From the NCBI RefSeq assembly GCF_036021035.1, contig NZ_CP107930.1:4798006-4862005 (forward strand): 64,000 nt of DNA, in the 5' to 3' direction. The position numbers and the translations under genes are program-made. Under the pieces are notes generated by a model. It did no database searches. It was not told the DNA's origin and saw only the letters and a list, made by a program, of their open reading frames with translations. The DNA comes from Kineococcus sp. NBC_00420 (GTDB lineage: Bacteria; Actinomycetota; Actinomycetes; Actinomycetales; Kineococcaceae). Each line of letters opens with the position of its first letter. Positions within the stretch are counted from its first letter, which is position 1. Positions 3,382-11,789 of this stretch are shown piece after piece.

Positions 3382-3416
3382 AAGGGCCCCGCACCGGAAT
3401 CCGGTGCGGGGCCCTT
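3382..3416. terminator. Bidirectional intrinsic terminator between ctaF and the ABC permease
   Basis: A 17-bp perfect inverted repeat (arms 3382-3398 and 3400-3416), beginning AAGGGCCCCGCACC on the left arm. It lies in the 69-bp gap between two convergent genes and has A/T ends on both sides, so it can stop transcription from either direction. Confidence 0.85.
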
Positions 3417-3433: not shown

Positions 3434-4447
3434 TCAGCGGGTCGCGCGGTGGCGGACGTAGCGGGAGAGGCCGACGGCCACGACCAGCGCCCCGCCGTAG
3501 AAGAGCTGCTGGACGAAGCTCTGCGCGCCCAGCATCTGCAGACCGACGACCCCGGAGGAGAGGAAGTACACGGCGACGACGGTGCCGAGGGGGTTGAACT
3601 GGCCCGGGACGATCGCGGTCGCGCCGAGGTAGGCCGCGGCGAAGGCCGGCAGCAGGAACGACTGCGCCGAGGACGGGTCGGCGCCGCCGAGGGCCCCGGC
3701 GTAGACGACACCGGCGAGACCGGCGATGGTCGAGCACCCGAGGAACGCCCCCGCCCGCAGGCGCGGGACGTCGAACCCGGACAGCTTCGCCACCTGCGGG
3801 GAACGACCGACGAAGAGCAGCCGTCGTCCCAGGGGGGTGAACTCCAGGAGCGCGGCGAGCAGGACCGCGGCGGCGAGACCGTAGAAGAACTGCAGCGGCA
3901 CCCCCAGCAGTCGCGTCCCGACGGTCGCCTGGACGAGGTGGGGGTCGATCCCGGTCACCGTGGACTGCCCCGAGATCCACTGCACGACGCCGAGCGCGAA
4001 GGTGCCGGACCCGAGCGTCACGATGAACGACGGGATCCCGAACACGACGACGCCGAGGGCGTTGACGATGCCCACGCAGAGCGCGGAGGCGACCCCGGCC
4101 AGCACCGCCGCACCGATGCTCCAGCCGTGCTGGACGTTCATGACGGCCGTGACCATGGAGGACAGACCCAGCGCGGAGGCGACCGAGAGGTCGAACTCCC
4201 CGGTGATGAGGGGGAGCAGGACACCGAGGGAGGCGACCAGCAGGACCGCCTGGGAACCCAGGACGCCCTGCAGGTTCCCGGCGGTCGGGTAGGTCTGCGG
4301 CCGGGCGAGGGAGAACACCACCAGGACGACGACCCAGACGCCGATGAGGGCGAACCGCTCGGCGTGCGGAGCCAGTCGCCACCGGCTCCGGCCACCGGCC
4401 TCCGTGCTGGGGTCGGTGGACGTGGCGGTGCGGGTGCTCGTGCTCAC
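3434..4447 (-). CDS. ABC transporter permease, RbsC family
   Basis: Membrane channel of a sugar/nucleoside-type ABC importer. The 337-residue product has about 9-10 hydrophobic segments and the family-typical segments LITGEFDLSVASALGL and LGGADPSSAQSFLLPAFAAAYLGAT. The start is GTG at 4447, which overlaps the stop of the ATPase gene by four bases (GTGA), pointing to translational coupling; a longer frame exists upstream but lies inside the ATPase gene. It is the last gene of the rutA-nitrilase-transporter unit and ends at a strong terminator. RbsC-family permeases carry pentoses, autoinducer-2 or nucleosides; the neighbours suggest a pyrimidine-related substrate here, which is inference. Confidence 0.9.
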   Translation of the reverse strand: MSTSTRTATSTDPSTEAGGRSRWRLAPHAERFALIGVWVVVLVVFSLARPQTYPTAGNLQGVLGSQAVLLVASLGVLLPLITGEFDLSVASALGLSSMVTAVMNVQHGWSIGAAVLAGVASALCVGIVNALGVVVFGIPSFIVTLGSGTFALGVVQWISGQSTVTGIDPHLVQATVGTRLLGVPLQFFYGLAAAVLLAALLEFTPLGRRLLFVGRSPQVAKLSGFDVPRLRAGAFLGCSTIAGLAGVVYAGALGGADPSSAQSFLLPAFAAAYLGATAIVPGQFNPLGTVVAVYFLSSGVVGLQMLGAQSFVQQLFYGGALVVAVGLSRYVRHRATR

Positions 4448-6039
4448 GAGGCCTCCCTGGTCTGGGTGGGGACGGGGAAGTGGGTGTCCAGCAGCCGGGT
4501 GCTGGACAGGACGCGGTCGGACAGCGTGGCCTGGGTGAGCTCGGCGCCGCTCAGTTCGGCGACCACGTGGCCGCGGGCCAGGACCAGGACGCGGTCGCAG
4601 ACCGTGGCGAGCTGCTCGTAGTCGGAGCTGGCGAGCAGGATCGAGGCGCCCCGCTCGGCCGCCTGGCGCAGCAGGTCGAAGACGAAGGCCTTGGCGCCCA
4701 CGTCGATCCCCTGGGTCGGTTCGGCGAGCAGGACGACCCGCGGGTCGGTCTGCAACCACTTGGCCAGGACGGCCTTCTGCTGGTTGCCGCCGGAGAGGGT
4801 CCCGAACGCCTTGCCCGGGTCGAAGGGCCGCACGTCGTAGCGCCGGGACAGCTCCTGGGCCCGGCGCTGCAGGGCACGGCGGTCGAGGCGGAACCGCGAC
4901 CCCAGCGTCGTCATGACCGGCATCGTCACGTTCCGCTCCACCGACTCCTCGGCGATGCCACCGTCGCGGCGACGGTCGGCGGGAACCAGGACGATCCCCA
5001 CGCCGAGGGCCCGGGCGGGGGTCAGGGACGAGAGCTGGAGGGCGTCGCGGTCGACGAGGAGGTCCCCGGAGACGTCGTCCGCGGCTCCGTAGAGCGCGGG
5101 GAGGACCTCGTCGTAGCCGGAACCGGCCAACCCGGTGAGCCCGAGGACCTCGCCGCGTCCGACGTCGAAGGACACCCCGTGCAGGCGTGGCGCGACCAGG
5201 CGGGCGACCTGGACCAGGCCCTGCCCCGGGACCGGTCCCGGCTGCGGACCCGGTGCGTCCGCGTCGGCGCGCTTGCGCAGGGCCGCGGCCAGGTCGGCGC
5301 CCACGATCAGCTCGGTGAGACCGACCGGGTCCGTCGTGGCGGAGTCCACCGTCCCCGCCCGGCGACCGTCGCGCAGGACGGTGACCTGGGCGGTGTGCTC
5401 CAGCACCTCGGTGAGGTCGTGGGAGACCAGCAGGACCGAGGTGCGGCCGTCCGCGACGAGGTCGCGCACGACCCGGAACAGCAGGTCGGTGCCCTCGCGG
5501 GGGAGGAAGACGGTGGGCTCGTCGAGGATCAGCAGCGTGCGGGAGTCCCCGAGCTCGTCGACCGCGCGCAGGATCGCCACCAGCGCCCGTTCGGTGTCGC
5601 TGAGGGTGGAGACCGCGGCGGCCGGGTCGATGTCGAGGCCGTGCCGGCGCAGGGTCTCGCCCGCCAGTCGGCGTTCGGTCCGCCAGGAGACCACCGCGCG
5701 ACGGGTGGCGATCCCCTGGGCGATGCGCATGTTCTCGGCCACGGACAGCTCGGGCAGCAACCCGAGGTCCTGGTGCACGACGCTGATCCCGAGGGCCCGG
5801 AAGGCCCCCGGGGCCAGCGGCAGGGGGGCAGGGCGGCCCCCCACCTCCAGGACCGCTCCGGCGTCCGGCTCGTAGACCCCGGTGAGGACCTTGATGAGGG
5901 TCGACTTGCCCGACCCGTTCTCCCCCAGGAGCCCGTGGACGGTCCCGGCGGGGATCTCCAGGCTGACGTCGTCCAGGGCGCGGTGGCCGCCGAAGGTCTT
6001 GGTCAGCCCGGTCAGCCGGATGGCGGGGGCGGCTGTCAC
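4444..6039 (-). CDS. ABC transporter ATP-binding protein with two ABC domains, RbsA family
   Basis: Energises the importer. The 531-residue protein contains two fused nucleotide-binding domains. The first has Walker A GENGSGKS (39-46) and a STLSDTERALVAI signature-like segment with Walker B LLILDEP. The second has the degenerate Walker A usual in this family (GLAGSGYDE), an intact LSGGNQQKAVLAKWL signature and VLLAEPTQGID. It overlaps the binding-protein gene upstream by four bases and the permease downstream by four bases. Domain architecture excludes ordinary single-domain ABC exporters. Substrate is not determined by this subunit. Confidence 0.93.
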   Translation of the reverse strand: MTAAPAIRLTGLTKTFGGHRALDDVSLEIPAGTVHGLLGENGSGKSTLIKVLTGVYEPDAGAVLEVGGRPAPLPLAPGAFRALGISVVHQDLGLLPELSVAENMRIAQGIATRRAVVSWRTERRLAGETLRRHGLDIDPAAAVSTLSDTERALVAILRAVDELGDSRTLLILDEPTVFLPREGTDLLFRVVRDLVADGRTSVLLVSHDLTEVLEHTAQVTVLRDGRRAGTVDSATTDPVGLTELIVGADLAAALRKRADADAPGPQPGPVPGQGLVQVARLVAPRLHGVSFDVGRGEVLGLTGLAGSGYDEVLPALYGAADDVSGDLLVDRDALQLSSLTPARALGVGIVLVPADRRRDGGIAEESVERNVTMPVMTTLGSRFRLDRRALQRRAQELSRRYDVRPFDPGKAFGTLSGGNQQKAVLAKWLQTDPRVVLLAEPTQGIDVGAKAFVFDLLRQAAERGASILLASSDYEQLATVCDRVLVLARGHVVAELSGAELTQATLSDRVLSSTRLLDTHFPVPTQTREAS

Positions 6040-7217
6040 GGTCGGCCCCAGAGCGCCTCGTACCCCGCGACGTAGGCGTCGCCGTAGCCGGTGCCGGCGG
6101 CCGGCGGGGTGCCCGTCTCGGCGACGTTGTCGTCGGTGAAGACCTTCAGCGGGGTGCCCTCGTCGCCGTCCTCGACGATCGGGGCCCCGGTCAGGACGCG
6201 CCCGGCCTGGTCCAACGTCGAGTAGGCCAGCCAGGAGATGTTCTCGCCGACGTCCATCGCCATGACGTCGCCGTCCTGGATGAGCTTCAGCAGGTCGGGG
6301 GTCCCGTTGAACGAGGCCATCTGGACCTGGCCGGTCTTCCCGGTCGCGGTGATGCCCTGCTGCGCGTAGATCGACATGGAGTCGTAGATCGGCAGGACGT
6401 AGTTCACCTCCGGGTCGGACTGCAGGGCGGTCTGGACCTCGCCGGAGATCTTCGTCGCCCAGTCGGTGGTCGGGACGTTGACGACCTTGCTCGTGCAGGA
6501 GGGGCAGTTCTCCTTCAGCGTGGCCTGCATCGCCTCGACCATGCCGTTGGAGGGCGGCACCTCCTGGGAGGTGATGATGACGGCGTCGACCGAACCCCCG
6601 GAGTCGGCGATGGACCAGTTCGCGATGAGGGCGGCGGCCTCGTTGAACGGGGCCGTGACCTGAGCCGCGATCAGGGGCGCCGAGGTGGCGCTGAACGTCG
6701 TCCCCGTCTGCTGGGTGTGGGTCACGATGACCGGGATGCCCGCGGTCTTGGCCCGTTGCAGGGCCGGGGTCAGCAGGTCGGCGTTGATGCCCTGCGCGAG
6801 CACGATGAGGTCCGCGCCCTGGCTGATGGCCTGGTCGATCCCGGCGCTGTGCTCGGTGGGGGTGCCCTGGTTGGTGTACTCCACCCAGGTGGCTCCGTAC
6901 TTCTCGGCGATCGTCGCGCTCTCGTCGTCGACGGCCTGGATGTAGGGGATCGCGCTGGAGTTCGGGATGTTGAAGATCTTCTTGCCCTTGATACCGGACA
7001 TCGCGAACGCCGGGGCGTCGAGGGTGAACGTCGGGTCGACGCTGGCGGCCTCGACCGCGGCCGCGGCCGCGGTCACCCCGGCCTGGTCGACGTCGCCGGA
7101 ACCACCACCGGTCGAGGCGTCGGAACTGCTGCAGGCGGTGAGGGTCGCGGACAGGCCGACGGCGAGGAGGAGGGCAGCGGCCCGGAACGAGGGGCGGCGC
7201 GGCGAGGCGACGGGCAC
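6036..7217 (-). CDS. Substrate-binding lipoprotein of the ABC importer (periplasmic-binding protein type 1 fold)
   Basis: Captures the substrate outside the membrane and delivers it to the permease. The 393-residue product has a lipoprotein signal peptide (SATLTAC, Cys29) and a ribose-binding-like body with an IDQAISQGADLIVLAQG segment and a C-terminal DDNVAETGTPPAAGTGYGD stretch. The start is GTG at 7217 with an AGGAG about six bases upstream. Two cysteines within NCPSC may form a disulfide. It begins 52 bp after the nitrilase-family gene on the same strand. The family binds sugars, nucleosides or purine derivatives; a pyrimidine or nucleoside ligand is suggested only by the linked rutA gene. 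Confidence 0.88.
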   Translation of the reverse strand: MPVASPRRPSFRAAALLLAVGLSATLTACSSSDASTGGGSGDVDQAGVTAAAAAVEAASVDPTFTLDAPAFAMSGIKGKKIFNIPNSSAIPYIQAVDDESATIAEKYGATWVEYTNQGTPTEHSAGIDQAISQGADLIVLAQGINADLLTPALQRAKTAGIPVIVTHTQQTGTTFSATSAPLIAAQVTAPFNEAAALIANWSIADSGGSVDAVIITSQEVPPSNGMVEAMQATLKENCPSCTSKVVNVPTTDWATKISGEVQTALQSDPEVNYVLPIYDSMSIYAQQGITATGKTGQVQMASFNGTPDLLKLIQDGDVMAMDVGENISWLAYSTLDQAGRVLTGAPIVEDGDEGTPLKVFTDDNVAETGTPPAAGTGYGDAYVAGYEALWGRP

Positions 7218-7269
7218 AGGAGCTCCTGGAGGGTCGGCGGGAGTTCGTGGGGGGTTTCGTGCTGGTGGT

Positions 7270-8178
7270 TCAGCGGGTCGCGACGAGGCGGGCGAGCAGT
7301 TCGACGACGTCGGAACGGCGGTCGCGCGACAACGGGAACGCCGCGCGGGTGCGGGTGACCAGGTCGAGGTCCAGGTCGACCTGCAGGACTGCTCCGGCGG
7401 AGTGCGCGGGTGCCTCGGAGAGGACGGCGCCGGTGGGGTCGACCGCGCAGGAACGGCCGAAGTAGCTGACCCGGTGGCCGTTGAGCTCCTCGGCGCCGGC
7501 CCGGTTGGCGGCGAGGACGAACACCTGCGACTCCATCGCCCGGATCGACAGTTCCTGCAGGAACAGCTCCTCCCGGCTCCCCAGGGAACTCACGACGGCC
7601 AGCACGACCTCGGCGCCCATCGCCCGGGCCAGCGCCCAGTGCTCGGGGAAGGACCGGTCGTAGCAGATGACGCAGGCGAAGCGGACCCCGAGCACGTCGA
7701 GGACGACGGGGGAGGCGCCGGGGGAGAAGAAGAACTTCTCGTCCACGTCGACACCACCGACGTGGTTGGCCGGCAACGACAACTTCCGGTAGGCCGGGCG
7801 GCTGTTCCCGTCGGCGTCCCGCCAGGGGAGCAGGTCGCCGTTCGCGTCGACCGCGACGGCGGAGTTGTGCAGGACGTCGGAACCCGTCCGCTCGTACATC
7901 CCCCAGACGATCGCGACCCCGAGTTCGCGGGCGAGGGCGGCGAAGCGTCCGGTGGTGGGCCCGGGCAGGGTCTGCGCCCACCCGGAGCGGTCCGTCGCCC
8001 GGGAGGTGCAGAAGTAGGGGGTGGTGATGAGTTCCGGGAGCAGCACGAGGTCCGGGGACGTCCCGTCGTCGCGTCGGGATGCCCTGCGCACCAGCGCTTC
8101 CAGTGGATCGAGGTTCGCGTCGAGGTCTTCGGTGGACTCCCCGGCCTGGACGACCGCCGCGCGCAGGACCCGGCTCAC
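7270..8178 (-). CDS. Nitrilase-superfamily C-N hydrolase (beta-ureidopropionase/carbamoyl-amide hydrolase-like)
   Basis: Predicted amidohydrolase of 302 residues with the full nitrilase triad: Glu49 (LLPEL), Lys132 (AYRKLSLP) and Cys172 ([11 protein letters not shown]). The fold proceeds with the family's usual [16 protein letters not shown] segment. Its GTG start overlaps the rutA stop by four bases (GTGA), so the two enzymes are probably made together. Beta-ureidopropionases and N-carbamoylputrescine amidases are the nearest families by motif. In Escherichia coli the product of RutA is hydrolysed by RutB, an unrelated isochorismatase-fold enzyme; this protein is well placed to replace RutB by cleaving ureidoacrylate or its peracid. 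That role is inference from context. Confidence 0.85.
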
Positions 8179-9251
8179 GCGGGGACCGCCACGTGCCGGC
8201 GACTGGTCATGAGCGGCTGGATGCGTTCCCCGAACGCGTCCACGCCGGCGACGAAGTCGTCGAAGGTCAGCATGACGCCGGCGATCCCGGGGACCGTGGA
8301 CAACTCGTCGAGCATCCGCGCGACGGAGGCGTAGGAACCGATGAGGGTTCCCATGTTGAAGTTCACCGCGCCCTCGGGGAGGGAGATGGTGCGGGCGGTC
8401 GAGTCAGCGTCGGCGTGCACGTCGGCGGCGGCCTCGTCGGCGCGGTAGTCGAGGGCGGAGAGGTCGGCGTTGGCGTGGTAGTCGTGCCACTTCGCCATGG
8501 CCAGCTCGTCGGTCTCGTCGGCGATCACCATGAACAGGGCGAGCGCGCCGACGTCGCGCCCGGACTCCTTCGTCGCGGCCAGCAGGCGTTCGCCGTGCGG
8601 GGCCATCGCGGTCGGGGTGTTGATCCCGACGCCGTTGAGGAAGTCGTACTCGGTGTTCTCGGCCGCGAAGCGGATCCCGGTCTCGGACTGACCGGCGGCG
8701 ACGACGTCGATGTGTCCGGGGCGGGGGGAGAGCACGCAGTCGTCCATCGTGTAGAACTCGCCCTCGAGGTCGCTGCGACCGTTCTCGGTGAGGTCGCGCA
8801 GGACCCGCACGTACTCCTCGGCGCGGCGGTAGCGGTCGCGGAAGTGGTCGTCGCCGGGCCAGAGACCCATCTGCGAGTACTCCTTCGGGGCCCACCCGGT
8901 GACGATGTTCACGCCGATCCGCCCGGGGGCGATCGAGTCGATGGTCGACACCATGCGGGCGACCAACGCCGGGGGCAGGGTGAGGATCGCGGTCGAGGCG
9001 TAGAGCTTGATGCGGTCGGTGACCGCCGCGAGCCCGGCCATCAACGTGAAGGACTCCAGGTTGTGGTCCCAGAACTCCGTCTCCCCGCCGAAACCGCGGA
9101 GTTTGATCATCGAGAGGGCGAAGTCGAACCCGTGCTGCTCCGCCTTCTGGACGATGGTCTTGTTCAGTTCGAAGCTGGGCATGTACTGCGGCGACGACGT
9201 GGAGATGAGCCAGCCGTTGTTGCCGATCGGGATGAAGACGCCGACGTCCAC
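8175..9251 (-). CDS. rutA: Pyrimidine monooxygenase RutA-like (flavin-dependent, luciferase-like)
   Basis: RutA opens the uracil ring between N3 and C4 using FMN and O2, giving a ureidoacrylate peracid. The 358-residue product matches my memory of E. coli RutA over long stretches: [15 protein letters not shown] near the N-terminus, [41 protein letters not shown] and, at the C-terminus, [15 protein letters not shown] with FGERIQPLM. The GTG start at 9251 is fixed by GAGGAG six bases upstream and by alignment of the N-terminus with RutA; longer frames upstream lack family similarity. It heads a five-gene unit with a nitrilase and an ABC importer. No flavin reductase (RutF) or RutB, C, D, E is present in the window, so a reductase must come from elsewhere. 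Confidence 0.92.
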
Positions 9252-9618
9252 GAGACTCCTCGGTTGGTCGTGGGTGGGTGCGTGACCTGCTTCGATGACT
9301 TCGAATGTCACTCGAGTCGAACGTAGGTCGTCCGCGTTGCTTGCTCGTCTCGTTCCTGTGAACAGCTCGTTTCGCCGGGGCCGGGAACATCCGGGGCCCT
9401 GCCCGGGCGGGGAAACCCTGCGGCTGGTCGTCCGGGGATCGCGGTCTCCCGTTGCTGGCACCCCGGTCGGTGCCTGTCGCGACCGTGACCGGATCGTGAT
9501 GTGCACGCGTGCAACGCGACGTGTCCGCGCGGCGTCACCAGGGTGAGCCGTCCAGGTGCGAGGATCGACGGCGGGGGAAGTACGAGAGGGTCCTGGTGAC
9601 CCGGGGGAGAAGCGCTCG
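9252..9618. promoter_or_regulatory. Divergent intergenic region upstream of rutA and the L,D-transpeptidase gene
   Basis: 367 bp without a gene. On the minus strand a possible -10 box TACGTT (9320-9325) lies about 70 bp before rutA. An interrupted inverted repeat TTCGA-N12-TCGAA (9300-9321), with a CTCGAG palindrome inside it, sits at the expected transcription start and could be an operator. On the plus strand a GGGGGAGA ribosome-binding site precedes the transpeptidase start. I see no other structured element. Confidence 0.4.
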
Positions 9619-10848
9619 GTGGAGAACAGCACGTACGTCCAGGTGCGGCGACGCACGATCGTCGCGGCGGTCCTGGCAGGGGTCGCCCTGCCGTTCGGGC
9701 TGACCGCCTGCCAGTCGGACGCCGACTCCGGCGCGGCCGGGAAGCCGTCCGCGAGCGGGACGCCGTCCGCACCGCCGGCCACGATCACCGTGACCCCGGC
9801 CGACCTGACCGGTGACGTCCGTCCGGACGCACCCGTCACCGTCACCGCGGCCGGGGGCAAGCTCACCGACGTCACCGTGACCGCGGCCGACGGCACCCCG
9901 CTGGCCGGTGCCGTGGACGCCGCCGGGACCACGTGGACCAGCAGCGCGGCACTCGCGCCGGCCACGGCCTACGCCGTGCACGCCGTCGCCACGAACACCG
10001 CGGGTTCGGCCGCGACGCGGGACAGCACCCTCACGACGTTGACCCCGACCGAGACAGCCTTCCCGGCCGTGGCGCCGCTGGCCGGTTCCGAGGTCGGGGT
10101 CGGGATGCCGGTCATCGTCACCTTCGACGCCCCCGTCGCCAAGGACAAGCGCAGCGTCGTCGAGCAGAACATGACCGTCACGGGGTCCCCGAACCCCGTC
10201 GCCGGGTCGTGGAACTGGCGTTCCGACACCAAGGTCGAGTTCCGGCCCGAGCAGTACTGGCCCGCGCACAGCACGGTGCACGTCGGCCTCGCGCTCGGCG
10301 CGATCGAGGTCGCCCCGGGCGTGTGGGGCAAGAGCCGCGACATCGACTTCACGATCGGCTCCGCGATGCTCAGCACCGTCGACATCGGCGCGCACACCCT
10401 CACCGTCACCCGCGACGGTGAGGTCCTCAAGACCATCCCCGTCACCCTGGGGCAGTCCGGCAGCGGCGGGCAGTTCGTCACCCGCAGCGGCACCAAGGTG
10501 ATCATGAGTCTCGAGAAGTCCCGGGAGATGAACTCCGAGACCACCGGCATCGGGCAGGACGACCCGCGCTACTACAACCTCGACGTGAAGTACGCGATGC
10601 GTCTCACCAACTCGGGGGAGTTCCTGCACGCCGCCCCGTGGTCCGTCGCCTCGCAGGGCAGGGCGAACGTCAGTCACGGCTGCACGGGCATGAGCACCGA
10701 GAACGCGCAGTGGATGTTCCAGAACTCCAAGGTCGGTGACGTCGTGACCTACACCGGCAGCGACCGCGGCATCGAACCCGGCAACGGCTTCAACGTGTGG
10801 AACGAGACCTACGACCAGTGGCGCCAGGGCTCCGCGCTGACCGCCTGA
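9619..10848 (+). CDS. L,D-transpeptidase lipoprotein with N-terminal Ig-like domains
   Basis: Forms 3-3 crosslinks in peptidoglycan. The 409-residue product has a lipobox (FGLTAC, Cys31), a low-complexity Ser/Pro/Thr linker, two beta-rich Ig-like regions (about 55-260) and a C-terminal YkuD catalytic domain with the SHGCTGMS motif (His353, Cys355). This layout matches the actinobacterial LdtMt2 type. The start chosen is GTG at 9619, with GGGGGAGA about eight bases upstream; a longer frame from 9556 would put a charged, proline-rich tail before the signal peptide. The next gene overlaps its 3' end. Confidence 0.92.
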
Positions 10849-11789
10849 GACGCCGCCGACTGTGGGCCCGTCGCTCCTGGCGGGCCCTCCTCGCGGTCGC
10901 CACCGTCGTGGCCGTGGTCGTCCTCGTGCACCGTCTGCAGGGGGCCGACCTGGGGGAGCGGCTGCGCTCCGCCGACCCCGGCTGGGTGACGATCGCCGCG
11001 ATCGTCGCCGTCGTCCCCCTGCTCGGCAACGTCGCCTCCATGACGGCCCTCTCGCCCGTGCGGATCCCGGTCGTGCGGACCTGCCTGCTCTGGCTCGCGA
11101 CGTCCTTCGTCAACCTCGTCACCCCGTCGAGCACCGGGGGGGTCGCGCTGACCGTCCGCTACCTGCAGCAGCGGGGCCTGCCGCTCGCGGTCGCGGCCAC
11201 CACCATCGGCATCGTCCAGTCCACCTCGTTCGTCGTCACCGCGGTGCTCCTGCTCGGCTGCGTCCTCCTCGCGGGTCGCGAGCCCGAGGCCGGGGTGTCG
11301 CTGCCCTGGCCGGTCCTCGGCGGGGCGGTCGTGCTCGCGGGCGTGCTGTTCCTCGTCGTCCGCTGGTGGCCCCGCGCCCGGCGTCTCGTCGCCGAGAAGG
11401 TGGTCGAGCCGGTCCGGGCGGAATGGCCGGCGCTGCGCCGCGTCCTGACCCACCCGACCCGCGTCCTGGTGGCCCTGCTCGGACACCTGGCGGTGCCCCT
11501 GGGGTTCGCCTCCACCCTGCTCTGCTGCGCCCGTGCGGTCGGGGGAGACCCCTCGCTGCCCCTGCTGGTGCTCGTCGTCGTCGGGAGCTCCGCCGTCGCC
11601 GCCGCGATCCCCGTTCCGGGGGGCATCGGCGCCTCCGAGGCCTCACTGGCCGCGGGACTGGTGGCGTCGGGGCTCGACCCGGTGCCCGCTCTCTCCGCCG
11701 CGCTCCTCTACCGGGCCCTGACGTTCTGGCTCCGCGTACCCTTCGCCTGGGTCGCTCTCCTCTGGCTGCGGCGGCGCCGCGCGGTCTAG
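10797..11789 (+). CDS. Integral membrane protein, lysylphosphatidylglycerol synthase TM-region/UPF0104 family
   Basis: A 330-residue membrane protein with about eight hydrophobic helices and the family-typical segments TSFVNLVTPSSTGGVALTVRYLQQRG and AAIPVPGGIGASEASLAAGL. The family includes flippase-like and lipid-modifying membrane domains; no aminoacyl-transfer domain is attached here, so only a transport or flippase-type role can be suggested. The first GTG (10797) overlaps the transpeptidase gene by 52 bases; an in-frame GTG at 10818 is an alternative. The overlap suggests co-expression with the peptidoglycan crosslinking enzyme. A strong hairpin follows. Confidence 0.85.
   Translation: MERDLRPVAPGLRADRLRRRRLWARRSWRALLAVATVVAVVVLVHRLQGADLGERLRSADPGWVTIAAIVAVVPLLGNVASMTALSPVRIPVVRTCLLWLATSFVNLVTPSSTGGVALTVRYLQQRGLPLAVAATTIGIVQSTSFVVTAVLLLGCVLLAGREPEAGVSLPWPVLGGAVVLAGVLFLVVRWWPRARRLVAEKVVEPVRAEWPALRRVLTHPTRVLVALLGHLAVPLGFASTLLCCARAVGGDPSLPLLVLVVVGSSAVAAAIPVPGGIGASEASLAAGLVASGLDPVPALSAALLYRALTFWLRVPFAWVALLWLRRRRAV

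Follow-up and report, generated by a model that had tools for sequence, protein, structure and literature searches.

The stretch of DNA analysed here, referred to as the window, covers 64,000 nucleotides of Kineococcus sp. NBC_00420 (contig NZ_CP107930.1, positions 4,798,006 to 4,862,005) and contains a five-gene operon encoding a flavin mononucleotide (FMN)-dependent monooxygenase of the RutA family, a nitrilase-superfamily amidohydrolase and an ATP-binding cassette (ABC) importer. The operon is likely the importer and ring-opening half of a RutA catabolic system devoid of RutB, the other half being encoded at a second chromosomal locus. The system is read as a split set because the two loci are complementary, have only rutA in common, and are found for the most part as one combined cluster in a genome of the same genus (G078); sets like it are also present in other bacteria of the soil. 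An initial annotation, made from the sequence of the window, had proposed a RutB-less rutA-nitrilase-importer operon, and this observation is confirmed; the best overall reading is a RutB-less Rut-like pathway for nitrogen scavenging, acting on uracil/thymine or on another pyrimidine-like ring.

Operon organization and the complementary locus

The five genes are all open and run on the minus strand in the order rutA, nitrilase, binding protein, ATPase and permease (Table 1), with rutA starting at a GTG codon at 9251. Three of the four junctions are four-base overlaps, including that between the nitrilase gene and rutA (8175-8178) already described by the initial annotation, whereas the remaining junction is a 52-base gap. 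The importer that follows the two enzymes is of the RbsABC type, as first suggested, and comprises (i) a Peripla_BP_4 binding protein, (ii) an ATPase with a double ABC domain, scoring 358.6 bits against the AraG model, under its cut-off of 689, and (iii) a BPD_transp_2 permease, all within the one operon.

The genome (one contig, 5,434,400 bases) encodes a second full RutA, RutA2, at 2366314-2367384 (606 bits), which shares 78% identity with the copy in the window and is located 2.44 Mb from the window operon on the same chromosome. The genes around rutA2 encode a LacI regulator, an AtzE-like amidase, a major facilitator superfamily (MFS) transporter, an isochorismatase-fold hydrolase and two flavin reductases, namely a PF01613 flavin reductase and an SsuE-like FMN reductase, the latter an open frame 63% identical over 170 columns to its Rhodococcus ruber counterpart. 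The sole gene common to the window operon and this second locus (L020) is rutA, and of the 12 genes in the fullest Rhodococcus clusters the two loci jointly account for all but one, RibBA, thus 11. The absence of a flavin reductase, part of the original description, holds for the 64-kb window, where tblastn at 1e-10 with the two flavin-reductase types of the clusters as queries returns no match, but not for the genome, given the two genes beside rutA2; the flavin reductase at this locus is 25% identical to RutF.

An intact rutB elsewhere in the genome was searched for and none found, the RutB model giving no match over its cut-off in the whole genome (best 35.5 bits versus 377.95). A RutB hidden among the six isochorismatase-domain genes of the genome was considered and rejected, none of them reaching the RutB cut-off; the one encoded near rutA2 shares 24-26% identity with RutBs, and RutB queries in the RutB-less loci match the isochorismatase gene only, at 22-30% identity. 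A RutE equivalog is encoded outside both loci (4439215-4439793; 256.4 bits, cut-off 152). The Klebsiella RutC, RutD, RutE and RutG proteins used as tblastn queries (1e-4) find no match in the window, in L020, in the G078 locus L032 or in L038-L047, the searches for RutC, RutD and RutG being confined to these clusters and not extended to the rest of the Kineococcus genome.

Table 1. Features of the rutA operon and its promoter region (positions in the window)
Feature	Position	Strand	Evidence or remark
rutA, FMN-dependent ring-opening monooxygenase, RutA family, RutB-less subgroup (predicted)	8175..9251	-	TIGR03612, tree position, Ser105
Nitrilase-superfamily amidohydrolase	7270..8178	-	PF00795, 154 bits
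Importer lipoprotein, substrate-binding protein	6036..7217	-	Peripla_BP_4; AlphaFold2 (AF2) model
Importer ATPase, two ABC domains, AraG/RbsA type	4444..6039	-	PF00005, two stretches
Importer permease	3434..4447	-	BPD_transp_2, PF02653, 98.9 bits
Terminator hairpin, 35 nt	3382..3416	-	-36.2 kcal/mol, z -6.0
Palindromic operator candidate TGACATTCGAAGTCA	9296..9310	-	44 nt upstream of rutA
Degenerate copy of promoter/operator block TACGTTCGACTCGAG	9311..9325	-	By eye; at the block's usual spacing from the GlnR-like box
GlnR-like box, GAAAC-n6-TTCAC	9358..9373	-	Fits the AC/T-n9-AC consensus (excerpts of PMC3662644)

RutA family, active-site residues and phylogeny

The strong similarity to RutA initially claimed is borne out by a score of 606.4 bits against the RutA equivalog TIGR03612 (cut-off 498.3; the scan used the longer open reading frame 8175-9965, with the match falling inside the rutA gene) and by 62% identity to the Escherichia coli enzyme (220 of 354 aligned positions). 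By this score the protein is assigned to the RutA family, but the operon is not of the rut operon type, since RutB was tested for and not found. The window RutA keeps the O2-pocket residues L65, N134, V136 and F224 together with the substrate-side W139, whose roles are discussed in excerpts of PMC7662398 and PMC10005588, and carries Ser rather than Thr at O2-pocket position 105 (E. coli numbering). Thr105 and Asn134 are located at the RutA O2 site in an excerpt of PMC10005588, and the portion of PMC7662398 on E. coli RutA mutants describes those at T105, N134 and V136 as inactive, with the exception of T105S, which has ca. 80% activity.

The phylogeny comprises 38 RutA-family rows, of which 33 fall into two groups, 13 RutB-linked (the RutAs of 12 plasmid records and that of E. 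coli) and 20 RutB-less, with 5 outside both. The RutB-linked RutAs form a single clade with support of 100/100, and the window RutA and all 20 RutB-less RutAs fall outside it. Membership of the RutA family is upheld by the score, the tree placing the protein outside the RutB-linked clade. The two groups differ at positions 105, 127, 204, 304 and 305, occupied by Ser, Ala, Val, Ser and Thr in 20 of 20 RutB-less RutAs and by Thr, Ser, Ile, Thr and Asn in 13 of 13 RutB-linked ones, counts that are not independent because many rows are closely related, the grouping resting on 33 sequences. Ser105 also occurs in the outgroup rows G390, G135 and G107, with Thr in both RutA3-type rows, and the midpoint root, with some long branches, leaves the direction of change outside what the tree gives. 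The window RutA and RutA2 are sister rows (99/95) adjoining the RutA of G078, which points to a duplication inside the genus; such a duplication would be consistent with the splitting of one cluster.

Conservation of the gene set in actinobacteria

The RutB-less system is patchy in distribution: of the 149 genomes searched within the order, 2 have the nitrilase (E<=1e-40) and 5 have RutA (E<=1e-60), two of these at 39-48% identity and one only with a third type (35%), and RutA is found at 1e-90 in 2 of 396 genomes sampled from the phylum. The G078 genome holds in one cluster LacI, the importer, RutA, the nitrilase (77% identical), the amidase, the MFS transporter, the isochorismatase, a flavin reductase and a riboflavin-kinase-like gene (L032:3070-3558), its 16-kb locus giving no match to the SsuE-like reductase or RibBA.

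A scan of named species with the nitrilase alignment (two short peptide patterns), which finds close relatives only, returned 13 loci, 10 of which hold the cluster, in Rhodococcus (6), Gordonia (2), Nocardia aurantia and Amycolatopsis acidicola. Across these 10 loci the nitrilase, the amidase and the isochorismatase are each present in all; the MFS transporter, binding protein, ATPase and permease in nine, Amycolatopsis being the exception; RutA and LacI in eight; both reductases in seven; and RibBA in five. The two loci without RutA and LacI (L039 and L041) are cut by contig ends, starting about 100 bases before the nitrilase; the genome of L041 has rutA with LacI at the end of another contig (L053), and that of L039 shows no RutA over the cut-off in the available sequence. 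As for the reductase-less loci, L038 and L046 end soon past the permease, and L040 has a different gene there. A distant actinobacterium (G390) has RutA (49-51%), the nitrilase (38%) and the isochorismatase (34%) together. The remaining three loci of the scan, from Puerhibacterium and Cellulosimicrobium (L048, L049 and L050, around 10001-10900), lack RutA and carry a nitrilase relative, 47-51% identical, whose neighbours are MFS and ABC genes together with polysaccharide-deacetylase/PuuE-type and old-yellow-enzyme-type genes (by eye, from first residues).

A metagenome-assembled genome (MAG) of Rhodococcus carries a second RutA above the cut-off (L052:8801-9871), with neither cluster genes nor the operator nearby and with a 24% match to RutF 1.5 kb away. 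In three lineages, RutB-less rutA clusters repeatedly include genes of riboflavin biosynthesis or a kinase-like gene, as RibBA (L039, L041, L042, L045 and L047), the kinase-like gene of L032 and RibB in Thioclava (L057:2548-3123), perhaps because RutA consumes FMN. A literature search, which covered open-access papers, brought up no description of RutA paired with a nitrilase or of a cluster devoid of RutB.

Plasmid records and Alphaproteobacteria

A tblastn search of 72,556 plasmid records with the window RutA matched 66 records, 19 of which were examined, including six unannotated ones typed by tblastn. In 12 of the 19, rutB adjoins rutA (Klebsiella, Pantoea, three Rhizobium, Neorhizobium, Moraxella, two Sphingobium, Niveispirillum, Novosphingobium humi and Falsirhodobacter, the rutB of the latter being labelled 'isochorismatase' and 61-65% identical to RutBs). 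The seven rutB-less records, in which RutB queries return nothing or only an isochorismatase match at 22-30% identity, are from Palleronia, Thioclava, Roseomonas, Agrobacterium vitis, Allorhizobium ampelinum, Rhizobium rhododendri and Novosphingobium resinovorum.

The Palleronia cluster resembles the actinobacterial set in RutA (66%), amidase (47-49%), isochorismatase (49%), permease (52%; 51.6% against that of the window), ATPase (40%) and binding protein (37%), and also encodes a Rid protein and a malonic semialdehyde reductase (RutE equivalog, 299 bits, cut-off 152). In R. rhododendri the genes for RutA, amidases, isochorismatase and importer follow a comparable order and are accompanied by one for a reductase sharing 60% identity with RutF, and A. 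vitis combines RutA, isochorismatase, amidase, flavin reductase and MFS transporter with a different ABC importer. Thioclava, Roseomonas and N. resinovorum have fewer genes in common with the set, and it is the Thioclava cluster that carries RibB. The search for rutA beside this nitrilase and importer, proposed at the outset for actinobacteria, thus finds the enzyme pair conserved there and the importer travelling with RutA in two phyla.

Hydrolases, importer and related systems

The catalytic Glu49, Lys132 and Cys172 of the nitrilase, whose intact triad had been recognized initially, and a second Glu147 are invariant in all 15 aligned relatives. Arg175, invariant in 14 of 14, aligns with an Arg of D-carbamoylase (1erz) and has no equivalent in N-carbamoylputrescine amidase, against whose model the protein scores 130 bits (cut-off 410). 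The nitrilase fold is nearest to carbamoylases, and the enzyme probably acts on an N-carbamoyl (ureido) acid, as suggested by this fold and these residues. Compared to the N-carbamoyl hydrolases, including D-carbamoylase (1erz/6lei), N-carbamoylputrescine amidase (5h8i) and beta-ureidopropionase (2vhi), identity is about 24-29%, and the window nitrilase is the partner of RutA and not of a hydantoinase.

The closest solved relative of the amidase in the G078 cluster belongs to the AtzE family (6c62, named biuret hydrolase in the PDB), and those of the isochorismatase-fold protein are N-carbamoylsarcosine amidohydrolase (1nba, 26st) or the maleamate amidohydrolase NicF (3uao, listed by the PDB as a putative isochorismatase). 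Both G078 proteins score below family cut-offs where a model exists, and none of the genes called at the loci is recognized as a cyanuric acid, creatinine or nicotinate gene.

The AF2 model of the binding protein (predicted local distance difference test, pLDDT, 82) displays a ribose/pentose-binding fold, with 12-21% identity to the fold matches; fold searches name only the broad pentose/hexose-binding family and no ligand, and the best sequence matches are ribose-binding proteins. The window importer has the domain architecture and binding-protein fold of RbsABC-type sugar importers. It differs from the RbsABC ribose importer in its binding pocket: at the ribose contacts of RbsB (D89, R90, R141, N190, D215 and Q235), mapped through a sequence alignment, the window protein has H, T, A, Y, N and E, respectively. 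All 12 of the cluster binding proteins compared, from two phyla, keep the replacing His, Tyr, Asn and Glu as well as a Trp close by, whereas the Thr at the R90 position varies. Ribose is unlikely as the ligand on the basis of these residues.

The system resembles the E. coli rut operon (rutABCDEFG) in its RutA, with the same O2-pocket residues bar T105S, in the RutE equivalog of the genome and in the flavin reductase at the second locus. It differs in that (i) RutB is matched in the actinobacterial clusters only at the isochorismatase gene, (ii) an ABC importer and an MFS transporter stand in place of RutG, (iii) LacI stands in place of RutR, and (iv) a nitrilase, an AtzE-like amidase and an N-carbamoylsarcosine-hydrolase-like isochorismatase are found instead. 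The oxidative barbiturase/ureidomalonase pathway of Rhodococcus, as outlined in part of PMC7662398, is also an actinobacterial route of pyrimidine degradation with amidohydrolases; the presence of RutA sets the system described here apart.

Promoter elements

Both in the window and in the clusters, rutA is preceded by a block with the 13-bp core ACATTCGAAGTCA, which has one mismatch before RutA2. The core was searched for in seven genomes with up to one mismatch, taking the reversed sequence as control. In the Kineococcus genome this gives two sites and no others, one ahead of the window rutA and one ahead of rutA2, and the reversed control matches nowhere. Four genomes of Rhodococcus, Nocardia and Gordonia (G539, G542, G535 and G537) have two exact sites each, before rutA and the importer by coordinates, along with 0 to 3 one-mismatch sites. 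In G078 an exact site at rutA is accompanied by one off-target, and in Amycolatopsis (G536) there is a single exact site, with the reversed control also matching once. The TTCGAA-centred palindrome would suit a LacI-type operator, a LacI regulator being encoded at the second locus.

Further upstream, a candidate element GnAA(C/T)-n6-(G/T)TnAC, which fits the GlnR consensus as given in excerpts of PMC3087709 and PMC3662644, is found by pattern in 11 of the 12 motif-bearing rutA promoters, the twelfth (L046) reading GAAAC-n6-GAAAC by eye. It lies 47 nt from the motif in 10 pattern-matched relatives and 63 nt in the window, where the degenerate copy of the block retains the 47-nt spacing. The exact candidate operator of the window lies directly downstream of this degenerate copy (9296-9325), an arrangement suggestive of a duplicated and displaced operator.

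Proposed mechanism and alternative readings

The Rut scheme of RutA/F, RutB, RutC and RutE is outlined in a portion of PMC8113886. In the RutB-less system, nitrogen limitation, acting through the GlnR-like box, and a ligand causing the LacI repressor to leave the TTCGAA operators would lead to transcription of both operons. The ABC importer would import a pyrimidine-like ring, which RutA, with FMNH2 from the second-locus reductase, would open at an amide bond to yield a ureido acid, which for uracil would be ureidoacrylate. The carbamoyl group and the remaining amide nitrogen would then be released as NH3 and CO2 by the nitrilase acting with the amidase and the isochorismatase-fold hydrolase, and a C3 enamine would give malonic semialdehyde for the RutE-type reductase encoded elsewhere. 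In this scheme, we infer the substrate, the order and substrates of the three hydrolases, the binding of the regulators and the C3 product, whereas the gene content, the complementarity of both loci and their conservation, the lack of RutB, the operator sequence common to them and the intact catalytic residues are observed directly.

Several observations weigh against this scheme. The window RutA lies outside the RutB-linked clade, uracil being a presumed substrate, and three C-N hydrolases exceed what uracil should need. The queries used find no nitrilase match in the sets of Palleronia and R. rhododendri and one of only 25-27% identity in A. vitis. On the regulatory side, the GlnR and LacI sites are predicted from pattern matches; the GlnR pattern matches shuffled promoters in 0.15-1% of cases but was written after viewing these promoters, and the promoter of the lone RutA in the Rhodococcus MAG carries neither element. 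Finally, the Kineococcus genome has a dihydropyrimidinase (547.5 bits, cut-off 393) whose gene adjoins one of the nitrilase family, a locus that could already handle uracil, so that the operon may not be the only pyrimidine route.

The reading that follows the initial annotation is a Rut pathway for uracil/thymine with the nitrilase as the only substitute for RutB and the ABC importer as that for RutG. The equivalog score of RutA, the conserved pocket residues, the absence of RutB and presence of RutE in the genome and the carbamoylase-like fold of the nitrilase all speak for it, and the absence of RutB stands. The nitrilase as sole replacement is not supported, because the amidase and the isochorismatase are at least as conserved and persist where the nitrilase is not found, and because RutA belongs to a separate group with its own five residues, so that we regard this proposal as unlikely. 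A non-uracil ring, such as a substituted pyrimidine or other cyclic imide from which each hydrolase removes one amide or ureido group, is a serious contender, although it falls a little short of an even chance. Such a ring is favoured by the placement of RutA apart from the RutB-linked clade, with five positions that separate the groups without exception in the sequences sampled, by the three hydrolases, by the dedicated binding protein with non-ribose pocket residues invariant across two phyla and by the separate dihydropyrimidinase locus; against it stand the TIGR03612 score and, in Palleronia, the malonic semialdehyde reductase and Rid protein, which point to the C3 end product of uracil and speak for uracil/thymine. 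Taken by itself, a substrate other than uracil is possible, at slightly below that same level. The broader proposal that the RutB-less clusters constitute a separate, unrecognized system of Actinomycetota and Alphaproteobacteria is put forward more tentatively; it would jointly entail a pyrimidine-like substrate other than uracil/thymine, a set of its own of importer, regulator and nitrilase/amidase/isochorismatase hydrolases, and a RutB-linked uracil RutA clade branching from the surroundings of the Ser105 subgroup.

A chance adjacency of RutA and nitrilase, with an importer for an unrelated sugar, could draw on the fold and best matches of the binding protein and on the Amycolatopsis enzyme genes, which have no importer genes nearby. 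It is nonetheless very improbable, given the recurrence of the gene set in further actinobacterial loci and in the same-genus genome, the importer accompanying RutA in two Alphaproteobacteria as well, the replaced ribose contacts and the operator common to both rutA loci. Riboflavin or lumichrome catabolism is a further possible reading in view of the RibBA (5 of 10 loci), riboflavin-kinase-like (G078) and RibB (Thioclava) genes; flavin supply for RutA seems the simpler reason for their presence, and no entry named riboflavin lyase is found among the solved-structure matches of RutA at 1e-5.

Neighbouring genes and other loci

The terminator hairpin closes the operon, lying between it and the convergent ctaF/cytochrome oxidase genes, and an L,D-transpeptidase-like gene (9619-10848) diverges upstream of rutA. 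Elsewhere in the genome, an F420-type luciferase-like monooxygenase (LLM) oxidoreductase (TIGR03842, 575 bits) adjoins the dihydropyrimidinase and the nitrilase-family gene (L071:7723-11045, genome C1:4329722-4333044), a locus that possibly represents a reductive pyrimidine-type route with an F420-dependent reductase. A third RutA-like monooxygenase (L007:5737-10184, genome C1:4986736-4991183) overlaps an isochorismatase-fold gene and is preceded by genes for an ABC importer whose binding protein is of the NMT1 type; the arrangement in G048 (L033) is similar. It was rejected as part of the same system, with 275 bits (below the cut-off), about 35% identity and a different importer and isochorismatase.

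Significance

The annotation 'pyrimidine utilization protein A' implies, for genes such as these, the use of uracil by the Rut pathway. The RutA proteins compared here fall into two groups that differ in tree position, in a residue of the O2 pocket and in the genes that accompany them, and the evidence predicts a nitrogen-controlled route that dispenses with RutB and has a dedicated importer and regulator. In Kineococcus, the catabolic gene set is split in two, yet the same operator sequence is kept at both halves. The system opens to testing the hydrolysis of ureido intermediates without RutB and flavin N5-peroxide chemistry on non-uracil rings.

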